From positions 1 to 64,000 of the forward strand of contig QEVF01000008.1 of assembly GCA_003576915.1 (NCBI GenBank): 64,000 nt of DNA, written 5' to 3'. Of this stretch, positions 33,082 to 50,051 are shown one piece after another. The notes under the pieces are model-generated. The model worked only from the letters and a program-made list of their open reading frames with translations, was not told the DNA's origin and made no database searches. The DNA is from Planctomycetota bacterium. Lineage in GTDB: Bacteria > Planctomycetota > UBA8742 > UBA2392. A program made the translations under genes and the position numbers. Position 1 is the stretch's first letter, and each line of letters starts with the position of its first letter.

Positions 33082-33202
33082 GGCGGCCAGTATAGAGCGG
33101 GCGCGAGGATTTAAGGAATCTTCATAGTTGCTTTAACCGGGGTTCACCGCCTGCCCCTAGTGTCTTGGGCAACGAATGGGGACCACTTACGGAGACCGCG
33201 CA

Positions 33203-34198
33203 ATGAAAGTGAACAAGGGACTGTTGCTGGCGGGCGTAGCCGCGCTGGCGCTGGGTGTGAGCACCTTCGGTTTTTCGGCCAGGGCCGCGCAGGCGGACGT
33301 GAAGGTGGAAGACGCGATTGAAAAGTACAAGCCCGTGGCCGGTGTTTCGGGCACGCTCTCGAGCGTAGGTTCAGACACCCTGAACAACCTGATGACCTTC
33401 TGGGCGGAGGGTTTCAAGAAGCAGTATCCCAACGTGACCTTTGCCGTTGAGGGCAAGGGATCAAGCACGGCCCCGCCGGCGCTGATTGACGGTACGGCGG
33501 ACATCGGCCCCATGTCGCGCGAGATGAAGGCCGAAGAAATCAAGAAGTTCGAGGACAAGTTCGGTTACAAGCCCAGCGTAGTGGGCGTGGCCGTGGACGC
33601 ACTTGCGGTATTCGTGCACAAGGACAACCCGATCAAGGGTCTCTCGCTCCCGCAGGTGGACGCGATCTTCTCGGCCAACCGCAAGGGCGGCTATAAGGAA
33701 GATGTCACCAAGTGGGGCCAGGTGGGACTGGAGGGCGAGTGGTCCAACCTGAGCATCACGCTGTACGGTCGCAACAGCGCCTCGGGCACCTACGGCTTCT
33801 TCAAGGAGAACGCGCTGTTCAAGGGCGACTTCAAGAGCACCGTCAAGGAGCAGCCGGGTTCCAGCACTGTGGTGCAGCTCATCAGCGAGGATCGCTCGGC
33901 GGCCGGCTACTCGGGCATCGGCTACAAGACGGCGGGCGTGAAGACCGTGCCGATCTCCAAGAAGGACGGCGACACGGCCTACGACGCGACGCCGGAGAAC
34001 TGCTACGCGGGCAAGTATCCGCTGTCGCGCTATCTCTGGATTTACTTCAACCGTGCGCCGGGCAAGGACGTCAGCCCCGTGGTCAAGGAGTTCCTGAGTT
34101 TCATTCTCAGCCGGGAAGGCCAGGAGATCGTTCTCAAGGACGGTTTCATCCCCCTGACCAAGAAGATGATTGACAAGAACCGCGAAGTGTTGAAGTAA
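33203..34198 (+). CDS. pstS: Phosphate-binding periplasmic protein PstS
   Basis: 331 residues from ATG 33203 with GGAGA nine bases upstream. A signal peptide ends near residue 29 (FSARA then AQA). The mature part has the PstS ligand-loop patterns: VSGTLSSVGSDTLNNL, FAVEGKGSSTAPPALIDGTADIGPMSR and GRNSASGTYGFFKE, ending RPGKDV..VKEFLSFILSREGQ. It captures phosphate for the PstCAB importer encoded immediately downstream. A 71-base gap with a weak hairpin separates it from pstC, an arrangement that usually lets the binding protein be made in excess. Confidence 0.95.
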   Translation: MKVNKGLLLAGVAALALGVSTFGFSARAAQADVKVEDAIEKYKPVAGVSGTLSSVGSDTLNNLMTFWAEGFKKQYPNVTFAVEGKGSSTAPPALIDGTADIGPMSREMKAEEIKKFEDKFGYKPSVVGVAVDALAVFVHKDNPIKGLSLPQVDAIFSANRKGGYKEDVTKWGQVGLEGEWSNLSITLYGRNSASGTYGFFKENALFKGDFKSTVKEQPGSSTVVQLISEDRSAAGYSGIGYKTAGVKTVPISKKDGDTAYDATPENCYAGKYPLSRYLWIYFNRAPGKDVSPVVKEFLSFILSREGQEIVLKDGFIPLTKKMIDKNREVLK

Positions 34199-34216: not shown

Positions 34217-34244
34217 GGGTGCGGGGCGCTCAGGCTCCGCACCC
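34217..34244 (+). terminator. Weak hairpin between pstS and pstC
   Basis: An 8-bp stem (34217-34224 with 34237-34244) with a 12-base loop sits in the short gap after pstS. No T-tract follows. It may act as an attenuator or 3' stabilising structure favouring pstS mRNA. Confidence 0.4.
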
Positions 34245-34269: not shown

Positions 34270-37200
34270 ATGGCTGAAGACACAAGGCAGATTGCGAAGC
34301 TCTCCAAGGCCAGGGTGCACTGGTCGGTGCATGTCATCGACAAGGTCACCAACATCGGCATTCGCATCGGCGGCCTGCTGGTGATTTTCGCTGTGCTGGG
34401 CCTGGTGTTCTTCATCTTCAGCCAGGTGCTGCCCCTGTTTCAGGACTCTGAGCACGGCGAATTCGAGAGCAAGGCTGCAGCCGACGCGGCCGCTCCCGTA
34501 GCCCTGCACGCCGACGAATATCGCCGCGTGGCGCTGCGCATCAATGAAGACGCTCGCCTCCAGCTTTACGCCGTGCCCACGGGCGAGGTCATGTTGTCCT
34601 GGAAGCTCGCCGAGGCCAAAGACGCCCGCATCACCTCGGCCCACATCTCCCTGCGGCCTTACACCCATGTCACGGTGGCCGGCATTCAGAACGTGCCGCG
34701 CTATTCGCTCACGCTGGGGCTTTCCGACGGTCGCGTGCTGCAGGGTTACGTGAGCTATGTGCACGGCTTCAAGCGCTTTGGCCTCAACCAGGATCCCGAA
34801 GCCTGGCGCAAGCTGAAGATGCCCGAGAAGCAGGAGATGTCCAGGCCCGACTACCGCCCCGATGTGCTCATCGACCGCGAGAAGGACGACTCAGGCGAGC
34901 AGATCTGGCTTGTCGAGCACCTCAACGAGTTCGGGTTCTATCGCCGCGTGCGCGCCATCGTGGCCATCGAGCGCGAACTGGAGCTTGCCGCCGGCGGCGA
35001 GGCTGTGACCCGTGTCTACTCCTCGCTGCATAAGGCGCCGCAGGATGCCGAGCGCGAGGCGCTGACGGCCGCGATCACGGAAAAGGGCCGCACCCTGCTG
35101 CTGCTGGAGAAGCTTGAAGTCAACGCCATGACCGACGAGTTGCAGGCCGAGACCCTGTTCAGCGCCGACGTCTCGGCGGACATCAAGGGCAAGCCCCTGC
35201 GCCTGGCCTGCCACGAGCTGCAGACCGAAGCCTGGGTGGCAACCGAAGAGGGCCTGCTCTATGTGTTCCGGCGCGCCGAAGGTTCAGGCGGGCAGCCCCT
35301 GCTGGCGCGCCCGGCGGATTACCCGGCTATCGACGTATTCAGCTTTCATACCGAGGACGGCCGCAAGTGGGGTGAAACCGTGGCGGCCATGCGCGAGGAT
35401 CAGGATCTGGGCGCGCCCGCGGGACCCCTGCGCCTCACGGCGCTTGACTATCTGCTGGGCGGCACGTCGCTGCTGGTGGGAGACAGTCACGGCGGCGTGC
35501 AGAGCTGGTTTGCCGTGCGTGAGACGCCCGAAGACAACAACCCGCGCCTGCGCCGCATTCACGTTCATCAGCCGGGCGCCGGTGCCATTCTCGGTTTCTG
35601 CTCCTGTGAGGCCAACAAGAGCTTCGCCGTCTGGGACGAAGGCGGCATGGTGCGCGGCATCCACAACACCAGTGAACGCGTGATATTTGAGGAGCGCGTG
35701 GCGGCGCCCGGGGCCACGAAGGTCTACTACGCGGGCAACGCGGGCGGCACGCTGGGCCTGGATGCCTCGGGCAAGCTGCGGCACTGGTGGGTGGACGCGC
35801 GTCACGCCGAAGTCAGCTTCAAGGCTCTGTTCGGACGGGTCTGGTACGAGGGCTTCATGGCGCCCCGGCACGAGTGGCAGACCTCCAGCGGCACCGATGA
35901 CGTCGAGCCGAAATACAGCCTCATGCCCCTGGTGATCGGGTCGCTCAAGGGCGGCCTGTATGCGCTCCTGTTTGCCATTCCCCTGGCGGTACTGGGCGCG
36001 ATCTACACCAGCGAGTTCATGCACCGCAACGTCCGCGCCGTGGTCAAGCCCACCATGGAGGTCATGGCCAGCCTGCCCAGTGTGGTGCTTGGCTTTCTGG
36101 GGGCGCTTTACTTTGCACCCATGGCAGCACCCATCATGCCGACGCTGCTGGCAGGCCTGGTCATCTGTCCCGGCCTCTTCATGTTCTTCGGCTGGGTGTG
36201 GCAGCAGCTTCCGCCGACCCTGACGGGCCGTGTCGGCCCGCGTTTGACGCTGGTCATCCTGCTGGCCCTGCTTCTGGTGGGGGCCTTTGCCGCTACGGCG
36301 GTGGGACCTCGGGCCGAGGCCTTGCTGTTTCCGGCCACGGAAGGCGCCGACCCGGCCCTGCTGGACCCCAGAACCTTCCAGCCGGTCAACGAAGAGGCGG
36401 CGCGCAAGCTTGATGCCGGCAACTTCCGCATCTGGACCAACGGCGGAGCAGAGCTGGCGCGGGCTACCAACACGCCCCAGGGTCTCCTGCCCAAGGGCTG
36501 GTGGATTCCCGGCGGCCACAATCTCTTCAAGGCCCTGATGTGGCTGCCCTTTGCGCTGCTGGCCGCCTGGTGCCTGCGCTCCCTGGCCGCCGTCATGTTT
36601 GGCGGCAGCGGCTTCTGGCGCGAGTGGCGCGGCCTGCTTTCCGGCGGCAACCCGCTGACGGCCCTGCGGCACCGCATCGCCGGTGGCAGCCGCACGGGCG
36701 TCTGGCCGGTCATGGTCGACGTGTCTTTCTCGCTGGGATTTGCGGTCATCGCCGGCCTGCTGGGCCTTGGACTTTCGTGGTTGCTCGCACCGGGCATTGA
36801 GGGCCTGCTGTTCAGCTACCAGCATCCAACCGCCGAGCGCGTGGCCGACTTCCGCCGCTTCCTGACGGGGCCCGAGGGCTGGAAATTCAACCAGACCAAC
36901 TCGCTCATCGTCGGCTTCTCCATGGGATTTGCGGTCATCCCCATCATTTACTCCATCGCCGAGGACGCGCTCTCGACCGTGCCCAACCAGTTGCGCGCGG
37001 CCAGCCTGGCCTGCGGCGCTTCACGCTGGCAGACGACCATTACCGTGGTGGCGCCCGCCGCCGCCAGCGGCATCTTCTCGGCCATTGTGATCGGGCTGGG
37101 GCGCGCGCTGGGTGAAACCATGATCGTGGTCATGGCAGCGGGCGGCACCCCCGTCATGGAACTGGAGCCCCTGAGCGGCTTTCGCAGCCTCTCCGCGGCT

Positions 37201-37353
37201 ATCGCCATTGAGATGCCCGAGGCGCCCCATGGCGGCACCCTCTACCGCACGCTGTTTCTGGGCGGCCTGTTGCTGTTTGCCGTGACCTTTGTGATCAGCA
37301 CTCTGGCAGAACTGGTGCGCATGAGACTGCGCAGGAAACTCTCGAGGATGTAG
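34270..37353 (+). CDS. pstC: PstC, phosphate ABC permease with very large extracytoplasmic domain
   Basis: Start ATG 34270 (MAEDTRQIAKLSKARVHW); a frame open from GTG 34219 is less likely. The product is 1027 residues, about three times the usual PstC (near 300). A first membrane helix lies at about 33-55, then some 490 residues outside the membrane with beta-propeller-like repeats (LQGYVSYVHG, VATEEGLLYVFR, LLVGDSHGGVQSWFAV, GTLGLDASGKLRHW). The permease core resumes near residue 550 (LVIGSLKGGLYALLFAIPLAVLGAIY), is interrupted again at about 680-890, and ends with the EAA-type loop LRAASLACGASRWQT. Enlarged PstC forms are known; this is an extreme one. Confidence 0.88.
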   Translation: MAEDTRQIAKLSKARVHWSVHVIDKVTNIGIRIGGLLVIFAVLGLVFFIFSQVLPLFQDSEHGEFESKAAADAAAPVALHADEYRRVALRINEDARLQLYAVPTGEVMLSWKLAEAKDARITSAHISLRPYTHVTVAGIQNVPRYSLTLGLSDGRVLQGYVSYVHGFKRFGLNQDPEAWRKLKMPEKQEMSRPDYRPDVLIDREKDDSGEQIWLVEHLNEFGFYRRVRAIVAIERELELAAGGEAVTRVYSSLHKAPQDAEREALTAAITEKGRTLLLLEKLEVNAMTDELQAETLFSADVSADIKGKPLRLACHELQTEAWVATEEGLLYVFRRAEGSGGQPLLARPADYPAIDVFSFHTEDGRKWGETVAAMREDQDLGAPAGPLRLTALDYLLGGTSLLVGDSHGGVQSWFAVRETPEDNNPRLRRIHVHQPGAGAILGFCSCEANKSFAVWDEGGMVRGIHNTSERVIFEERVAAPGATKVYYAGNAGGTLGLDASGKLRHWWVDARHAEVSFKALFGRVWYEGFMAPRHEWQTSSGTDDVEPKYSLMPLVIGSLKGGLYALLFAIPLAVLGAIYTSEFMHRNVRAVVKPTMEVMASLPSVVLGFLGALYFAPMAAPIMPTLLAGLVICPGLFMFFGWVWQQLPPTLTGRVGPRLTLVILLALLLVGAFAATAVGPRAEALLFPATEGADPALLDPRTFQPVNEEAARKLDAGNFRIWTNGGAELARATNTPQGLLPKGWWIPGGHNLFKALMWLPFALLAAWCLRSLAAVMFGGSGFWREWRGLLSGGNPLTALRHRIAGGSRTGVWPVMVDVSFSLGFAVIAGLLGLGLSWLLAPGIEGLLFSYQHPTAERVADFRRFLTGPEGWKFNQTNSLIVGFSMGFAVIPIIYSIAEDALSTVPNQLRAASLACGASRWQTTITVVAPAAASGIFSAIVIGLGRALGETMIVVMAAGGTPVMELEPLSGFRSLSAAIAIEMPEAPHGGTLYRTLFLGGLLLFAVTFVISTLAELVRMRLRRKLSRM

Positions 37354-37357
37354 CCCC

Positions 37358-39694
37358 ATGGCCGAGCGCGCCCCAGCGGTTTCCGAAAGTCCCAGGCCCG
37401 CACGCCAGAGGCGCGTGCAGAAGGGCGAACCCTTCGTCTGGCTTTCGGGCGGCGCGATCATGACCGGCATCGTGCTCATCGTGCTGGTCGTGGGGCTGAT
37501 CGTGTACGAGGGCAGCCGCACGTTCTGGCCCCGCGGGCTCGAGGTCATTGCGCTGGGCGAGTCGCGCTACCTGCTTCAGACCAGCGACGGCCGGCAGGCC
37601 TTCCTTGACCCCGAAGATCGCCTGCTGCTGCCCCAGGGTGAAGCTTATGCCTACGCCGATGGCCGCCGGTATGCGTCAACGCTGCCGCCGCGCAAGGCGG
37701 GCATCGCCGACTTCCGCCGCGCCCCCGGAGCCTTTGCGGGATTCCAGTGGCAACTTGCGGGTGCAGGCGGCGTGCTCAAGACGCCGGCCGGCGCTCCTGT
37801 AACGCCCGAACAGTACCTGAAGGACGCCGGGACATTCGCCTCGCCCTACAGCGTCGTGGACGACACCGGCCGCTTTGTTCCCGCCGAAAAACTGCTGGGC
37901 GATGACCGCTTCCGCGACCACGTCATGCTGCTGGGGGCTGTGCGCGCCGACCGCCCCCTCGACCTGCGGGACCTGCCGCGCAAGGCCGACGGCACTCCCT
38001 GGCAGGCCTACGAACTGGACACCGAGCCCACCGAGCTTCTGGTGCGCCAGGGCAACAAGGGCGAAGGGCTGCAGCCTGACAGCATGTATTTCCGCTGGGT
38101 CAAGACCGATGTGCCGGACGTGGACGGCTACCGGCGCGGCAACCCCGGCGGCTTTGAAGCCTATGTGCTGGGCCGGGCCCCGGCGCGGCACGTGTGTGAG
38201 ATCGAGCGCCTGGAGAAGGGGGTGCTGGTCGGTTATGTCGTGGAAGTCAAGGACGGCGAGAAAACCCTGGCCTCGATCGAGAAGGACGGCCTGGAGCGTG
38301 TGTGGGAGGTGTTTCTCGAACAGCAGGCCGCGATGCACGCCGAGTATCTGCGACGCGTGGAAATCGAGAAGGATGATATCGGCGACGTGAACTATGAGAT
38401 CAAGCAGCTCGAGCTGCGCGTCGCGCGCATCCGACATGATTTCCGCAAGTCCGGCGAGATGGTCACGGCCATCGAGAAACTCGCGGAGGCCTACACCGCC
38501 TGGTCGCGCCTTGAACCACCTTCCCGGCCTGACACCAAACCCGAAGAATACGCCCAGGCTTGCGGCACCTGGCGCGCCCAGCTTGATGAATCCCTGAGGG
38601 CCTGGGACCGTGAGATCGCCGCCTACAAGCTGGATGACAGTCAGCGCGAAGCACTGGCCGAGGCGCGCGCGGCGCAGCTCGAGCGCGCGGACTTCCAGAG
38701 CGGCGCCTACTCCAGACTACGCCTGGAAGTGACGCGGCTGCGCGAGCATGAGAAAACCGTGACCTATACGCTGCGCGCCCTCAACGGCCAGACGGCCGTA
38801 TTGCCCGTGGCCCAGGTGGTACGGGCGATCTTGCCCAACGAGCTGGGCTTCTTCGGCAAGCTGGGCGTCTACCTCGACCGCTTCCGGGAGTTCCTGTGGG
38901 AGAACCCCCGCGAGTCCAATACCGAGGGCGGCATCTTTCCGGTCATCGTCGGCACCCTGCTCATGACCCTTCTGATGAGCCTGGCCGTGGTGCCTTTTGG
39001 CGTGATCGCCGCGCTGTATCTGCGGGAGTACGCCAAGCAGGGCCCGCTGGTTTCTGCGGTGCGCATTGCGGTCAACAACCTGGCGGGGGTGCCCAGCATC
39101 GTGTTCGGCATCTTCGGACTGGGTTTCTTCTGCGTGATCATGGGCGGAACGGTGGACAGCCTGTTCTACCCCGAGAGGCTGCCGAGCCCGACCTTCGGCG
39201 GCGGCGGTCTGATGTGGGCCTCCCTCACTCTTGCGCTCATGACCGTGCCCGTGGTGATCGTGGCTACGGAAGAAGCGCTGATCGCCGTGCCTTCAAGCCA
39301 GCGTGAGGCCAGTCTCGCGGCGGGCGCGTCGCGCTTCCAGACGGTGTGGCGGGTGATCCTGCCCCAGGCCATGCCCGGCATCCTCACGGGCATGATCCTG
39401 GCCATGGCGCGCGGCGCGGGCGAAGTGGCCCCGCTGATGCTGGTGGGCGTTGTGAAGTCGGCCGAGACGCTGCCCGTGGACGGCAACTTCCCGTTCATTC
39501 ATCTCGAACGCAAGTTCATGCACCTGGGTTTCCACATCTATGATGTCGGCTTCCAGAGCCCTGACATTGACAACACCAAACCCCTGGTCTTCACGACCAC
39601 GCTGGTGCTCATTCTCGTCATTGCCGTGCTGAACATCGCCGCCATCCGCATGCGCAACAGGCTGCGCAGGCGCCTGGCCTCGAGTCACGTGTAA
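37358..39694 (+). CDS. pstA: PstA, phosphate ABC permease with large extracytoplasmic coiled-coil domain
   Basis: 778 residues, against about 280 normally. A membrane helix at about 27-48 is followed by some 475 extracytoplasmic residues, including a charged coiled-coil stretch at about 320-480 ([29 protein letters not shown] and [16 protein letters not shown]). The permease core follows: [26 protein letters not shown] and the EAA loop [24 protein letters not shown], ending in [23 protein letters not shown]. It starts four bases after pstC stops. The matching enlargement of both permeases suggests the two outer domains work together, perhaps contacting PstS or the envelope. Confidence 0.88.
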
Positions 39695-39716
39695 TATGAG
39701 GAACAAGGAGCAGGAA

Positions 39717-40583
39717 ATGGCTAACATGACCGCCCCTGAGGCGCTCCCCGCCGGGGAAAAGTCTGACCCTCGTGGAGCCTTGCGCGTGACCATGCAGGAC
39801 ACCGGCAAGCTGGAAAAGCCCGAGGCCCTCGAGACCATTGTCCGTATCGAGAACTTCAACCTTTTCTACGGCAAGCACCACGCCCTGAAGAACATCAACC
39901 TCGACATTCCCAAGAACCGCGTCACCGCGCTGATTGGACCCTCCGGCTGCGGCAAGAGCACGCTTCTGCGCAGCATCAACCGCATGAACGACCTGATCGA
40001 CGGCATCAGCTATCAGGGTTCGATTTATCTCGGCGGCAACGACATCTACGCGCCGGACCAGGACGTCATTGCCCTGCGCAAGCACTGCGGCATGGTGTTC
40101 CAGAAGACCAATCCCTTTCCCAAGTCCATCTTCGAGAACGTGATTTATCCCAACCGCATCAGCGGCGAGCGCAACCGCAAAAAGCTCGCGGAGATTGTGG
40201 AGCGCTGCCTCAAGCGCACCGCCCTGTGGGACGAGGTCAGCCACCGCCTTCACGACAACGCCACCGCACTTTCCGGCGGCCAGCAACAGCGCCTGTGCAT
40301 CGCACGCGGCATCGCCAACGAGCCCGACGTGCTGCTGATGGACGAGCCATGCAGCGCCCTGGACCCCATTGCCACGGCCAAGATTGAAGAGCTGATTCTT
40401 GACCTGCGCGAGAACTACACCGTGGTCATCGTGACCCACAACATGCAGCAGGCGGCGCGCGTGGCCGACTACACGGCCTTCATGTATCTGGGCGAAATCA
40501 TCGAGTTCGGAGCCACCAGCGAGATGTTCCTCAAGCCGCGTCTCAAGCAGACGGAAGACTACATCACCGGCCGCTTCGGCTAG
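39717..40583 (+). CDS. pstB: PstB, phosphate importer ATPase
   Basis: 288 residues from ATG 39717, chosen because GGAG lies six bases upstream; the frame also contains ATG 39696. An N-terminal extension of about 40 residues precedes the standard PstB: Walker [10 protein letters not shown] with the PstB-specific [10 protein letters not shown], signature [16 protein letters not shown], and Walker [14 protein letters not shown]. It powers phosphate import through PstC-PstA. It ends the operon with a terminator 53 bases downstream. No phoU follows, unusual but not unique for pst operons. Confidence 0.95.
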
Positions 40584-41368: not shown

Positions 41369-43033
41369 TTACCGGCCGATACCCGCCCTCGTTACAAGAA
41401 ATTGCCGCAGCAGCAAAAGGCCCGCCAGCGCCGCCAGTGCCCAGAGTCGGCCGCCCTCCCGTGCCGAGCAGCCGCCTCCTCCTCCGCTTCCGCCGCCCCC
41501 TGAAGGCGCGCTGCTGGTGGCGGTGGCAGTAGCGGTGTTGGAAGCCGCGCTGTCTCCCACGGTGTTGGTGGCAATCACGCGATAGCTGTAGGGCACGCCT
41601 TCAGTCAGTCCGGTGTCGAGGTGGCTGGTGGCGTTGGCGGCCGCAGTGGTCAGGGTGGTGAATGCGCCGCCTGAAACACTTCGCTCGATGCGGAATCCTG
41701 TCTCGTTGCTGCTGGTGTCGGTCCAGGACACGCTGATCCGGAGGCCAGCTTGCGCGACGGCGGCGCAGTTCGTGGGTGCGCTGGGCGTCGTTGGCGTCGG
41801 CGGCGTGGCGTTGTTCTCGCAGGCGCCCATGTCCGGCGCGGGGCCGGCGGGGCGCGCGTTGCCGTCGTAATCATCGGATACGCTGGCGTGGGAAGCGGCG
41901 GCGTCCACCACGCCGGCGGGAGCGGAAGCGTTCAGGCGCAGATTGCCGCTGCCGGGCGCGACGAACCACGATGCCTGCGCGTTGATCACGTTGTTGCCTA
42001 CGGTGTTGGCGCTCGTGCCGCTGCCGCGGTCCGTGATGGCGCAATCCAGCAGGTTGTAGCGGATCTCCGCGCCGGTCGTGGAAAAGCGGTACTCGATGCC
42101 GTTGGCGTAGCTGCCGCTCTGGACGATCGTGTTATTGAGGCACTTGGTGTTGGGTGAGTCCCAGATGAGGATGGAGCAGTCCGGCGTATCCACGCCCGCG
42201 GGCGTGCCCGAGGCGCGATAAATGAAGTTGTTGCGGATGACGCCGCCCGCGTGGTCTGTTTGCGGCGCGGCACGGTCAATCAGGCCAAAGGCGATGGCGG
42301 TTTCGCAGTTGATGAAGGTGTTGCCCTCGCAGACGGTGTTGCTGCATCCGTTCCACATGAGGACCGCCGGGCCAATTCCGCCGGGGATGAGGTTGACGAG
42401 TTCGAAGCGATTGTGGCGGATGATCCAGTTGTCGCCGCCGTGGATGTCCACTCCGTTGGTGTAGGTGGTTCCCTGAGTCGTGTACTTCATCAGCGTGTAC
42501 TCGACGATGCCGTTGTCGCTGCCGCCGCCGAAGCCCGACGCGCTGCCCTTGATGAACTGTTCGCCCGTATCCAGCAGGCGGCAATTGTAGATGCGGACAC
42601 CGGTGACGCCCGTTTCGCCGGCCAGCTGGATGGCGTGATAGTAGACGTTGCGGATCGTCAGGTCGGCGATCAGCATGCCGCTGGTCTTGCTGACGTGAAT
42701 GCCGTGAGGGATGGTGCCCGTGCTGCTGCTCATGCCGTTGCCCTGGATGATGCAGGCCGCGGGGTTGCGCGAAGCTGAGCGTATTCCGATGTTGGTGCGC
42801 GTGACGGTCGCGCCGGCGTTGAAGAACAGGCTCTGCGTCAACGTGTAGGTGCCGTCGGCCAACTCGATGATCTGGTTGTCGGCGATATTGCTGACGGCGT
42901 TTTGCAGTTGCGCGGCGGTGCTGACGCTCACGACGGTAACGCCGCCCGGATTGGCCAGGGCGGGAGCAGCCGTGTAGTCCCTGGCGGGCAGGGTGCCGCA
43001 AAGGCAAAGCAATACCAGGGTCATTCTCAGCAT
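41369..43033 (-). CDS. Secreted right-handed beta-helix protein with FN3 domain and C-terminal sorting signal
   Basis: 554 residues. A signal peptide (TLVLLCLCGTLPA) leads into a pectate-lyase/PL6-like beta-helix: VSTAAQLQNAVSNIADNQIIELADGTYTL then repeated N-x-I/F rungs. A fibronectin type III domain follows at about 415-500 (APTNCAAVAQAGLRISVSWTDTSSNETGFRIERS). The C-terminus is GGGGSGGGGGC, a hydrophobic helix ([13 protein letters not shown]) and a basic end RQFLVTRAGIGR, the pattern of MYXO-CTERM/GlyGly-CTERM-type sorting signals. It is exported and probably surface-anchored; polysaccharide-lyase activity is possible but no catalytic residues could be assigned. Confidence 0.75.
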   Translation of the reverse strand: MLRMTLVLLCLCGTLPARDYTAAPALANPGGVTVVSVSTAAQLQNAVSNIADNQIIELADGTYTLTQSLFFNAGATVTRTNIGIRSASRNPAACIIQGNGMSSSTGTIPHGIHVSKTSGMLIADLTIRNVYYHAIQLAGETGVTGVRIYNCRLLDTGEQFIKGSASGFGGGSDNGIVEYTLMKYTTQGTTYTNGVDIHGGDNWIIRHNRFELVNLIPGGIGPAVLMWNGCSNTVCEGNTFINCETAIAFGLIDRAAPQTDHAGGVIRNNFIYRASGTPAGVDTPDCSILIWDSPNTKCLNNTIVQSGSYANGIEYRFSTTGAEIRYNLLDCAITDRGSGTSANTVGNNVINAQASWFVAPGSGNLRLNASAPAGVVDAAASHASVSDDYDGNARPAGPAPDMGACENNATPPTPTTPSAPTNCAAVAQAGLRISVSWTDTSSNETGFRIERSVSGGAFTTLTTAAANATSHLDTGLTEGVPYSYRVIATNTVGDSAASNTATATATSSAPSGGGGSGGGGGCSAREGGRLWALAALAGLLLLRQFLVTRAGIGR

Positions 43034-48453: not shown

Positions 48454-48566
48454 GGTGTCCGCCGCCGTGAGGCAGGCACAATATCGAAAGCGCGGGCTTA
48501 TTTAAGGGCCTTGCCGAATTGCTGATGCAGCCTCCGCCCCCCGTCGCTAAAGTTACTGACACACCC

Positions 48567-50051
48567 ATGGACGCTCTCCGCGCCGAGCCCGTCAGCGAGC
48601 CCCTTGCCCGTCCTCAAGGTCTGGACGAGCAGATGGCCCGTGTGCTGCGCTGCCACAAGGCCGCCCGGGACAAGCTTTCGGGCAGGAACGTACACGAGTT
48701 GCGCGTGGCCTTGCGCTCCTGCCTTTCATTGGCGGACGGTCTGCGGGAGTTCGACGACCACGCCGCCTGGGCCACACTGCGCGAGCAGGGGCGCCGCCTG
48801 TTCAAGCGCGTCGGTTTGCTGCGCGACATTCACATGCTGGAGGCCCGGGTCAAAAAGCTCTCCGCCGTGCGCGACAGTGTCAGCCGCCGCCTTCTGCGCC
48901 TGCTGGAAGAACGCATCCAGGGCGCGCAGAAGGACGCGCGCCAGGCGCTGGCGGCCTTCAACCGCAAGGCCTGGCGGCGCCTTGCCTCGCTCTTGCCCCG
49001 CCGCGCTGCGCGCCTGGCTTTGGATGACCCGGCCTTTGAGCAACTTGCGCTGCAGCGCTGGACGGAGGCCGAGGACCTGCACTACAAGGCCCTTGAGGGG
49101 CGCTCGCGTGAGGGCTACCACGAGCTGCGCATTGCCATCAAGCGCTTCAGGTATACGGTGGCCGCCTTCCTGCCCGGGTTTCACGCCCGTTGGGGCCGCG
49201 ATTTGCGCCGCCTGCAGAGTCTGCTGGGCCAGGTTCATGACCTGGACCTCGTGGACGACCTGCTCAAGGCCGCGCCCGGAGTTTCGCGCGGGGCCCGCAA
49301 GCGCTGGCGCCAGCACATCGAGAAGGAAATCCAGGATCGCCTTCAGCGCTACCGCAAGCTGACCATGGGCGAGCGCTCTCTGTGGTCCGCATGGCGCGCC
49401 GGCCTGCCCGGCGATTCGCGCTTGCAGGAGTCGGCCGTGGCGCGCCTGGCGGCCTGGGCCACCTTCCACGACCGCGACTACGAACACACAGCCCACGTGG
49501 CGCGCCTGGCCCTGCAGCTCTTTGACGCCCTGCGCGCGGCCAGAGTGCGCGAGCCCTTCAGCGAAGAAAAGGCCCGCCACAAACTGGAGGCCGCCGTGTT
49601 CCTGCACAATGTCGCGGCGCGGGCGGGCAAGCCGCACAAGGAGGCCGCGCGCGTGGTGCGTGCCCTGCCTGCGCCCCTGGGCTGGTCGCGCTTTGAAATG
49701 GACTACGTCGCGGACATCGTTCGCTACCACCGCGGCAAGGAGCCGCAGGCAAGGCATCGGCGATTTGCTTCGCGCCCGCCGGAGCAGCAGCAGGCCATTC
49801 GCGTGCTGGCGGGCCTGCTGCGTCTGGCTGTGGCGCTGGATGCCGCGCATACGGGGGCCGTGAAGGGGCTGAGCCTGGAAGTCAGCCCCGAGGCCGTGAT
49901 CGTGCGCGCGGAGGGCTTTGATGAAACGGGCCCCTCGGCGGCGGCCGTGTCCGAGGGCAAGGCGCTGCTGGAAGCCGCGCTGGACCGGCTGGTGCTCGTC
50001 AAGTCGGCTGATTTCGCGGCAGCGCCGGCGCGGCACAGCGAAGAGGAGTAG
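48567..50051 (+). CDS. CHAD domain fused to a Ppx/GppA-like HD domain
   Basis: 494 residues from ATG 48567 (an earlier in-frame ATG at 48525 is possible). Residues about 20-280 form a CHAD domain: VHELRVALRSCLSLADGL and YHELRIAIKRFRYTVAAFLPGF carry its histidine/lysine/arginine pattern for polyphosphate. Residues about 300-480 resemble the C-terminal HD domain of exopolyphosphatase Ppx/GppA (HDRDYEHTAHVARLALQLFDAL, FEMDYVADIVRYHRGKEP). The metal-binding His-Asp of HD domains reads His-Asn here (VFLHNV), so hydrolysis is doubtful. A polyphosphate-binding or sensing role is inferred. Confidence 0.78.
   Translation: MDALRAEPVSEPLARPQGLDEQMARVLRCHKAARDKLSGRNVHELRVALRSCLSLADGLREFDDHAAWATLREQGRRLFKRVGLLRDIHMLEARVKKLSAVRDSVSRRLLRLLEERIQGAQKDARQALAAFNRKAWRRLASLLPRRAARLALDDPAFEQLALQRWTEAEDLHYKALEGRSREGYHELRIAIKRFRYTVAAFLPGFHARWGRDLRRLQSLLGQVHDLDLVDDLLKAAPGVSRGARKRWRQHIEKEIQDRLQRYRKLTMGERSLWSAWRAGLPGDSRLQESAVARLAAWATFHDRDYEHTAHVARLALQLFDALRAARVREPFSEEKARHKLEAAVFLHNVAARAGKPHKEAARVVRALPAPLGWSRFEMDYVADIVRYHRGKEPQARHRRFASRPPEQQQAIRVLAGLLRLAVALDAAHTGAVKGLSLEVSPEAVIVRAEGFDETGPSAAAVSEGKALLEAALDRLVLVKSADFAAAPARHSEEE

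Follow-up and report, generated by a model that had tools for sequence, protein, structure and literature searches.

The Pst system is the standard high-affinity importer of phosphate, and its mechanism and its part in phosphate sensing have mostly been described from the form found in E. coli, whose permease subunits have no large extracytoplasmic domains (PstC is 319 and PstA 296 amino acids long). In the maltose importer, a periplasmic loop of the permease subunit MalF has a role with the maltose-binding protein. The P. aeruginosa pst operon was reportedly the subject of a 1996 paper, and COG4590 and COG4985 may be pertinent to the large PstC and PstA proteins. Published work on Pst deals with transport and with Pho signalling: for E. 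coli it has been proposed that PhoR and PhoU sense which conformation the transporter is in (PMC5775613), and P. fluorescens pstC is regulated by phosphate and required for competitive growth (PMC2225411). We found no description of a propeller or of a large periplasmic domain in PstC or PstA in the open literature, subscription papers lying outside the search.

Here we analyze a pst operon that lies in a 64,000 nucleotide stretch (hereafter the window) of a Planctomycetota draft genome, and whose PstC and PstA proteins are 1027 and 778 amino acids long.

The pst operon of the window

The genes pstS, pstC, pstA and pstB lie in that order on the + strand. The pstS gene (33176..34198, +) encodes a phosphate-binding protein of the large-type clade (below) that scores 250.9 bits against TIGR02136 (cut-off 206.6); pstC (34270..37353, +) encodes the 1027 amino acid permease, which has a BPD_transp_1 match at residues 873-1021; pstA (37358..39694, +) encodes the 778 amino acid permease, 236.4 bits against TIGR00974 (cut-off 193.45); and pstB (39696..40583, +) encodes the ATPase, 394.5 bits against TIGR00972 (cut-off 343.2). 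The best model for PstC is TIGR02138 (E=1.3e-55), whose match is broken into two by the inserts described below and whose score of 188.5 bits is just below the cut-off of 196.45. Both permease reading frames are stop-free; the 1027 residues of PstC are counted from an ATG, and the open frame itself reaches back to a GTG at 34219. Foldseek matches the PstA core to the E. coli PstSCAB cryo-EM chains. NCBIfam models thus name all four genes, PstC by its best model, and the gene order and the PstA model mark the operon as that of a Pst phosphate importer, phosphate transport itself being predicted. It is the sole Pst importer found in this genome, whose draft contigs yielded no further PstC/PstA pair. 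Next to the operon lies a gene (41369-43033, -) for a beta-helix protein that looks secreted and has a fibronectin III domain, and further on (48519-50051, +) lies a gene for a CHAD domain protein with subsequent matches to a Ppx/GppA domain III-like region and to HD, which suggests a polyphosphate link.

The extra length lies largely between the first transmembrane segment (TM1) and the permease core, where PstC has a gap of 491 residues and PstA one of 466 (22 and 18 in E. coli), so that the PstC insertion of about 490 residues noted after the first helix in a first-pass annotation of this DNA is borne out by measurement. Could proteins of this size be artefacts of assembly or gene fusion in a draft genome of 59 contigs? 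The genome's relatives are Planctomycetota MAGs, and in one of these, an independent species-level MAG, PstC and PstA have the same lengths as in the window and are 95% and 91% identical to them; other intact operons of the window's family have the same architecture and similar length. Substitutions between the inserts of the window and of that MAG are mostly synonymous (dN/dS 0.06-0.15, with 0.01-0.04 in the cores), and the inserts are therefore kept by selection, less strictly than the core. These comparisons rule out an assembly error or fused genes and, with the architecture repeated in many independent genomes and in a complete P. aeruginosa plasmid record, make an artefact practically inconceivable.

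Structure of the PstC and PstA inserts

PstC begins with TM1 at residues about 35-56 (34372..34437, +), placed by hydropathy and contained in a helix at 18-57 in the AlphaFold2 model. Insert 1, residues about 57-545 (34438..35904, +), is modeled as an extracytoplasmic WD40-like beta-propeller plus a linker; it is followed by the first part of the core, residues 546-690 (35905..36339, +), by insert 2, residues about 691-865 (36340..36864, +), which was delimited by alignment coverage and by helices in the model, and by the second part of the core, residues 866-1027 (36865..37350, +), in which the EAA coupling region lies. The first core part is 35-50% identical to large-type relatives outside the window's family and the second 54-62% identical to those outside the family and order, while residues 57-370 of insert 1 are 13-23% identical to relatives beyond family and order.

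The AlphaFold2 model of PstC, from a run with 56 aligned Planctomycetota sequences, has a mean pLDDT of 85.7, and that of PstA 83.4; both were built from Planctomycetota sequences only, with no P. aeruginosa or Aeromonas rows. Insert 1 is nearly all beta strand in the model (about 31 strands; most blocks have a pLDDT of 80-96), and a Foldseek search of the PDB with PstC gave WD40 propellers with E down to about 1e-11 and, for single-propeller chains, TM-scores of 0.6-0.69 normalised to the target. Pfam propeller families match 23 of 58 aligned PstC sequences, the window's PstC not being among them, and no Pfam domain was found at E<=0.1 in the PstC or PstA inserts of the window. A WD40-type beta-propeller fold for insert 1 is thus strongly supported by the predicted structure, in agreement with the first-pass description of this sequence as propeller-like. 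The second PstC insertion that had been proposed is also present and is predicted to contain two extra TM helices, 750-777 and 811-848, which are separated by a stretch rich in arginine. Alignment coverage of this insertion is 90-100% for the window's family and one order-mate (L054), and 5-10% elsewhere. A group of large-type PstC proteins of 858-894 amino acids (L055, L060, L061, L062, L064 and L065) appears to have its own insert of ~100 residues near this position, with extra hydrophobic segments that are not alignable with insert 2 of the window.

The PstA insert comprises a lineage-specific front part, residues about 52-230 (37511..38047, +), which is 21-34% covered outside the family; a conserved beta domain, residues about 231-306 (38048..38275, +), in which E283 and R284 are invariant; and a coiled-coil hairpin (38291..38758, +) with AlphaFold2 helices at 312-361, 366-383, 395-420 and 427-467. 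Profile alignments of this insert start ~177 residues into it with other Planctomycetota and ~143 residues in with gammaproteobacteria. The transmembrane core, residues 521-778 (38918..39691, +), is 61-65% identical to Aeromonas and P. aeruginosa PstA. In the model a mixed beta domain precedes a long antiparallel helical hairpin (block pLDDT about 89-97), so the large PstA insert with a coiled coil proposed in the first-pass annotation is recovered, and its division into a beta domain and a long coiled-coil hairpin is strongly supported by the prediction. Searches of the PDB and of viral structures with PstA returned mainly permease cores and no credible match for the insert, and we therefore leave its fold without a name; a resemblance to HlyD-like membrane-fusion proteins, considered for the beta/coiled-coil/beta order, was not supported.

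The anatomy of the PstC and PstA inserts is thus strongly supported by sequence together with confident models. From the type I importer fold, with its N-terminal TM1 and cytoplasmic C-terminal coupling region, we infer that the TM1-TM2 loop faces outward. As judged from alignment, insert 2 of PstC and some 150 residues at the front of the PstA insert are confined to the window's family and order.

The hairpin is long, with helices of about 40-50 residues, and together with the propeller it could dock to peptidoglycan or to an outer-membrane phosphate channel that feeds phosphate or PstS to the importer, the inserts having been lengthened to suit the envelope of the family. The PstA insert length, which ranges from 172 to 712 residues and is longest in the window's family, would fit such docking. 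Against it, no outer-membrane partner came to notice, and the Foldseek search with PstA, which the TM core dominated, turned up nothing of an adaptor type for the insert; we regard docking to the envelope as unlikely.

Distribution and pairing of the large type

Large PstC proteins occur in about 130 of 292 sampled Planctomycetota genomes (a hand count of genomes with a best E <= 1e-50), and the open frames of the strong matches listed are about 740-1160 amino acids long, bar a few shorter ones that are fragments. Other Planctomycetota have short PstC and PstA proteins of about 300 residues, and at least one genome (G043) has both kinds. The sole sampled member of the window's family with a short Pst operon alone (L079, genome G011) possibly reflects a binning contaminant or a replacement. 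Outside Planctomycetota the large type is found in P. aeruginosa (a complete pstSCAB-phoU operon in a plasmid record) and in Aeromonas. The insert profiles of the window's family match those of the gammaproteobacterial inserts with hhalign E=2e-32 (PstC) and 2.6e-15 (PstA), and the inserts are therefore homologous. The annotated P. aeruginosa PstC (L049:1516-3798, WP_003123734.1, 677 amino acids) appears to start past TM1; an upstream start gives 761 amino acids and a TM1 that resembles those of other large-type PstC proteins. The window Pst can hence be assigned, by its sequence, to a distinct large type that gammaproteobacteria such as Pseudomonas also have, and the rarity implied by the first-pass annotation does not hold, since the type is common among Planctomycetota and occurs in Pseudomonas and Aeromonas as well.

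Are the two enlargements coupled? Across 57 large operons, insert lengths are 368-506 residues for PstC and 172-712 for PstA, and no large PstC without an enlarged PstA was found among them, so the paired enlargement seen in the window holds in 57 of 57 cases. Both inserts are absent from 18 of 22 other operons, and the remaining four (from Paracoccus, Sinorhizobium, Vibrio and Halomonas) have unrelated inserts of an alphaproteobacterial type in both subunits, 77-227 residues in PstC and 113-155 in PstA. DUF3708 in PstC and DUF3333 in PstA were present in all three of these four operons that were scanned. Pfam gave no DUF3708 or DUF3333 match in the window proteins, and a single large-type PstA in 50 has a weak DUF3333 match (E=0.0017); kinship between the two sorts of insert is not supported (hhalign E 0.07-0.57). 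These four loci (L124-L127), from alphaproteobacteria and some Vibrio and Halomonas, apparently represent a second, independent paired enlargement of PstC and PstA. A Bacteroides PstC of 398 amino acids (L128:3000-4196) has a match to PBP_like_2 at residues 37-97 (E=1.1e-7).

Trees were built on core columns alone. In both the PstC-core and the PstA-core tree a single branch, with an SH-aLRT of 100%, sets the large type apart. One origin of the large type is the simplest reading of these trees, whose root is not fixed. In the PstS tree all 26 large-type proteins are on one side of one branch (94% support), and they have their own N-terminal stretch and their own conserved positions, 200-207 and 224-227 for example, as well as extra segments at 38-49 and 168-173; for PstB the large type does not separate. 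Mean identities between large and other types, and within the others, are 28.6 and 32.8% for PstS, 32.1 and 39.5% for PstC, 36.4 and 40.7% for PstA, and 56.3 and 57.2% for PstB. The divergence therefore lies in the outward-facing and membrane parts of the importer and not in its ATPase, and it is strongly supported by the sequence comparisons that PstS, PstC and PstA of the large type form their own lineage. Inserts that are disordered, unconserved and unlinked, or an assembly error, any of which would have undone the first-pass idea, are all contradicted by the models, the selection, the trees and the pairing.

The same data bear on a structural or protective role, in which the inserts would serve PstC-PstA assembly or stability, or would be a scaffold for unrelated outer proteins, outside the transport cycle. 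That the inserts evolve faster than the core and that small-type transporters have none are in keeping with such a role, which we nevertheless consider quite unlikely in view of the strict pairing, the retention in two phyla and the co-divergence of PstS.

Possible function of the inserts

We give about even credence to the idea that in large-type Pst systems the two insert domains together make up an extracytoplasmic platform on which PstS is docked or gated. The PstC propeller and the PstA coiled-coil domain would sit next to each other over the translocation path, where they would dock and gate phosphate-loaded PstS as the MalF loop does for maltose-binding protein, and PstS capture or release would then depend on more contacts than those with the membrane loops. 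Later additions in the window's family and order would be the extra segment of PstA and the two extra helices of PstC. We favor this reading because it is the cheapest account of the paired gain and of the PstS co-divergence. Of the three functions that the first-pass annotation had offered, PstS capture, docking to the envelope and phosphate sensing, capture fits best because PstS diverges with PstC and PstA and PstB does not, and it is put forward here on that ground as a probable direction only. Several points speak against the platform: the inserts are by alignment less conserved than the cores, small-type importers take up phosphate without them, and the PstS co-divergence could be due to an operon-wide history instead of contact. 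PstB is, moreover, generally conserved, and its contrast with PstS, PstC and PstA is therefore weaker.

The insert domains might instead act on the outer face by signalling the loading state of PstS to a sensor of the PhoR type. The window genome has phoU, a response regulator and a PAS/HisKA kinase clustered at another locus (L132:3557-6749, contig C16), and the kinase (585 amino acids) gives a weak sCache-like match and has ~140 residues between its two TM segments, and therefore probably an outward domain that could be contacted. The phoU and kinase genes are, however, unlinked to the pst operon in this genome, and the E. coli model involves transporter conformation, PhoU and a PhoR without a periplasmic sensory domain (PMC5775613); we hold a signalling role of this kind to be very unlikely.

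If the platform reading of the inserts is true, PstS capture by them would change the picture of phosphate uptake in these bacteria. A bolder proposal, which we think doubtful, is that large-type importers differ in mechanism and form a class of Pst of their own, in which a two-part outer vestibule made of the PstC propeller and the PstA coiled coil holds a dedicated PstS lineage or couples it to an outer-membrane phosphate channel, a function that would have driven at least two independent paired enlargements.

Comparison with known systems

Large-type Pst is widespread and its insert domains are apparently uncharacterised: a lineage that includes P. aeruginosa has two big conserved outer domains for which we found no described role. 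The E. coli PstSCAB transporter (cryo-EM 9k3s, 9k3x and 9k3y) has its subunits and permease core in common with the window system, but its core is distant and, unlike the window proteins, it has no large extracytoplasmic domains. Alphaproteobacterial-type PstC and PstA (DUF3708, PF12501, and DUF3333, PF11812) are also enlarged N-terminally in both subunits, but their inserts are not detectably homologous to those of the large type and they occupy a separate tree branch. The MalF periplasmic loop of the maltose importer is likewise a permease-borne periplasmic domain, and a similar role is proposed here for the Pst inserts; the Foldseek matches to MalF are to the permease core, and no insert homology was shown.

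The closest systems are the large-type operons of P. aeruginosa and Aeromonas (L049 and L050), whose two permease subunits have homologous inserts in the corresponding position, and which have PstC and PstA cores in the same clade and, in P. aeruginosa, a PstS in the large clade. They differ from the window in having phoU inside the operon, in their shorter inserts (383 and 253 residues, compared with 491 and 466) and in lacking the second PstC insert and most of the PstA front part. What is new in the window operon is thus the set of additions specific to its family; otherwise it is a member of a widespread lineage.
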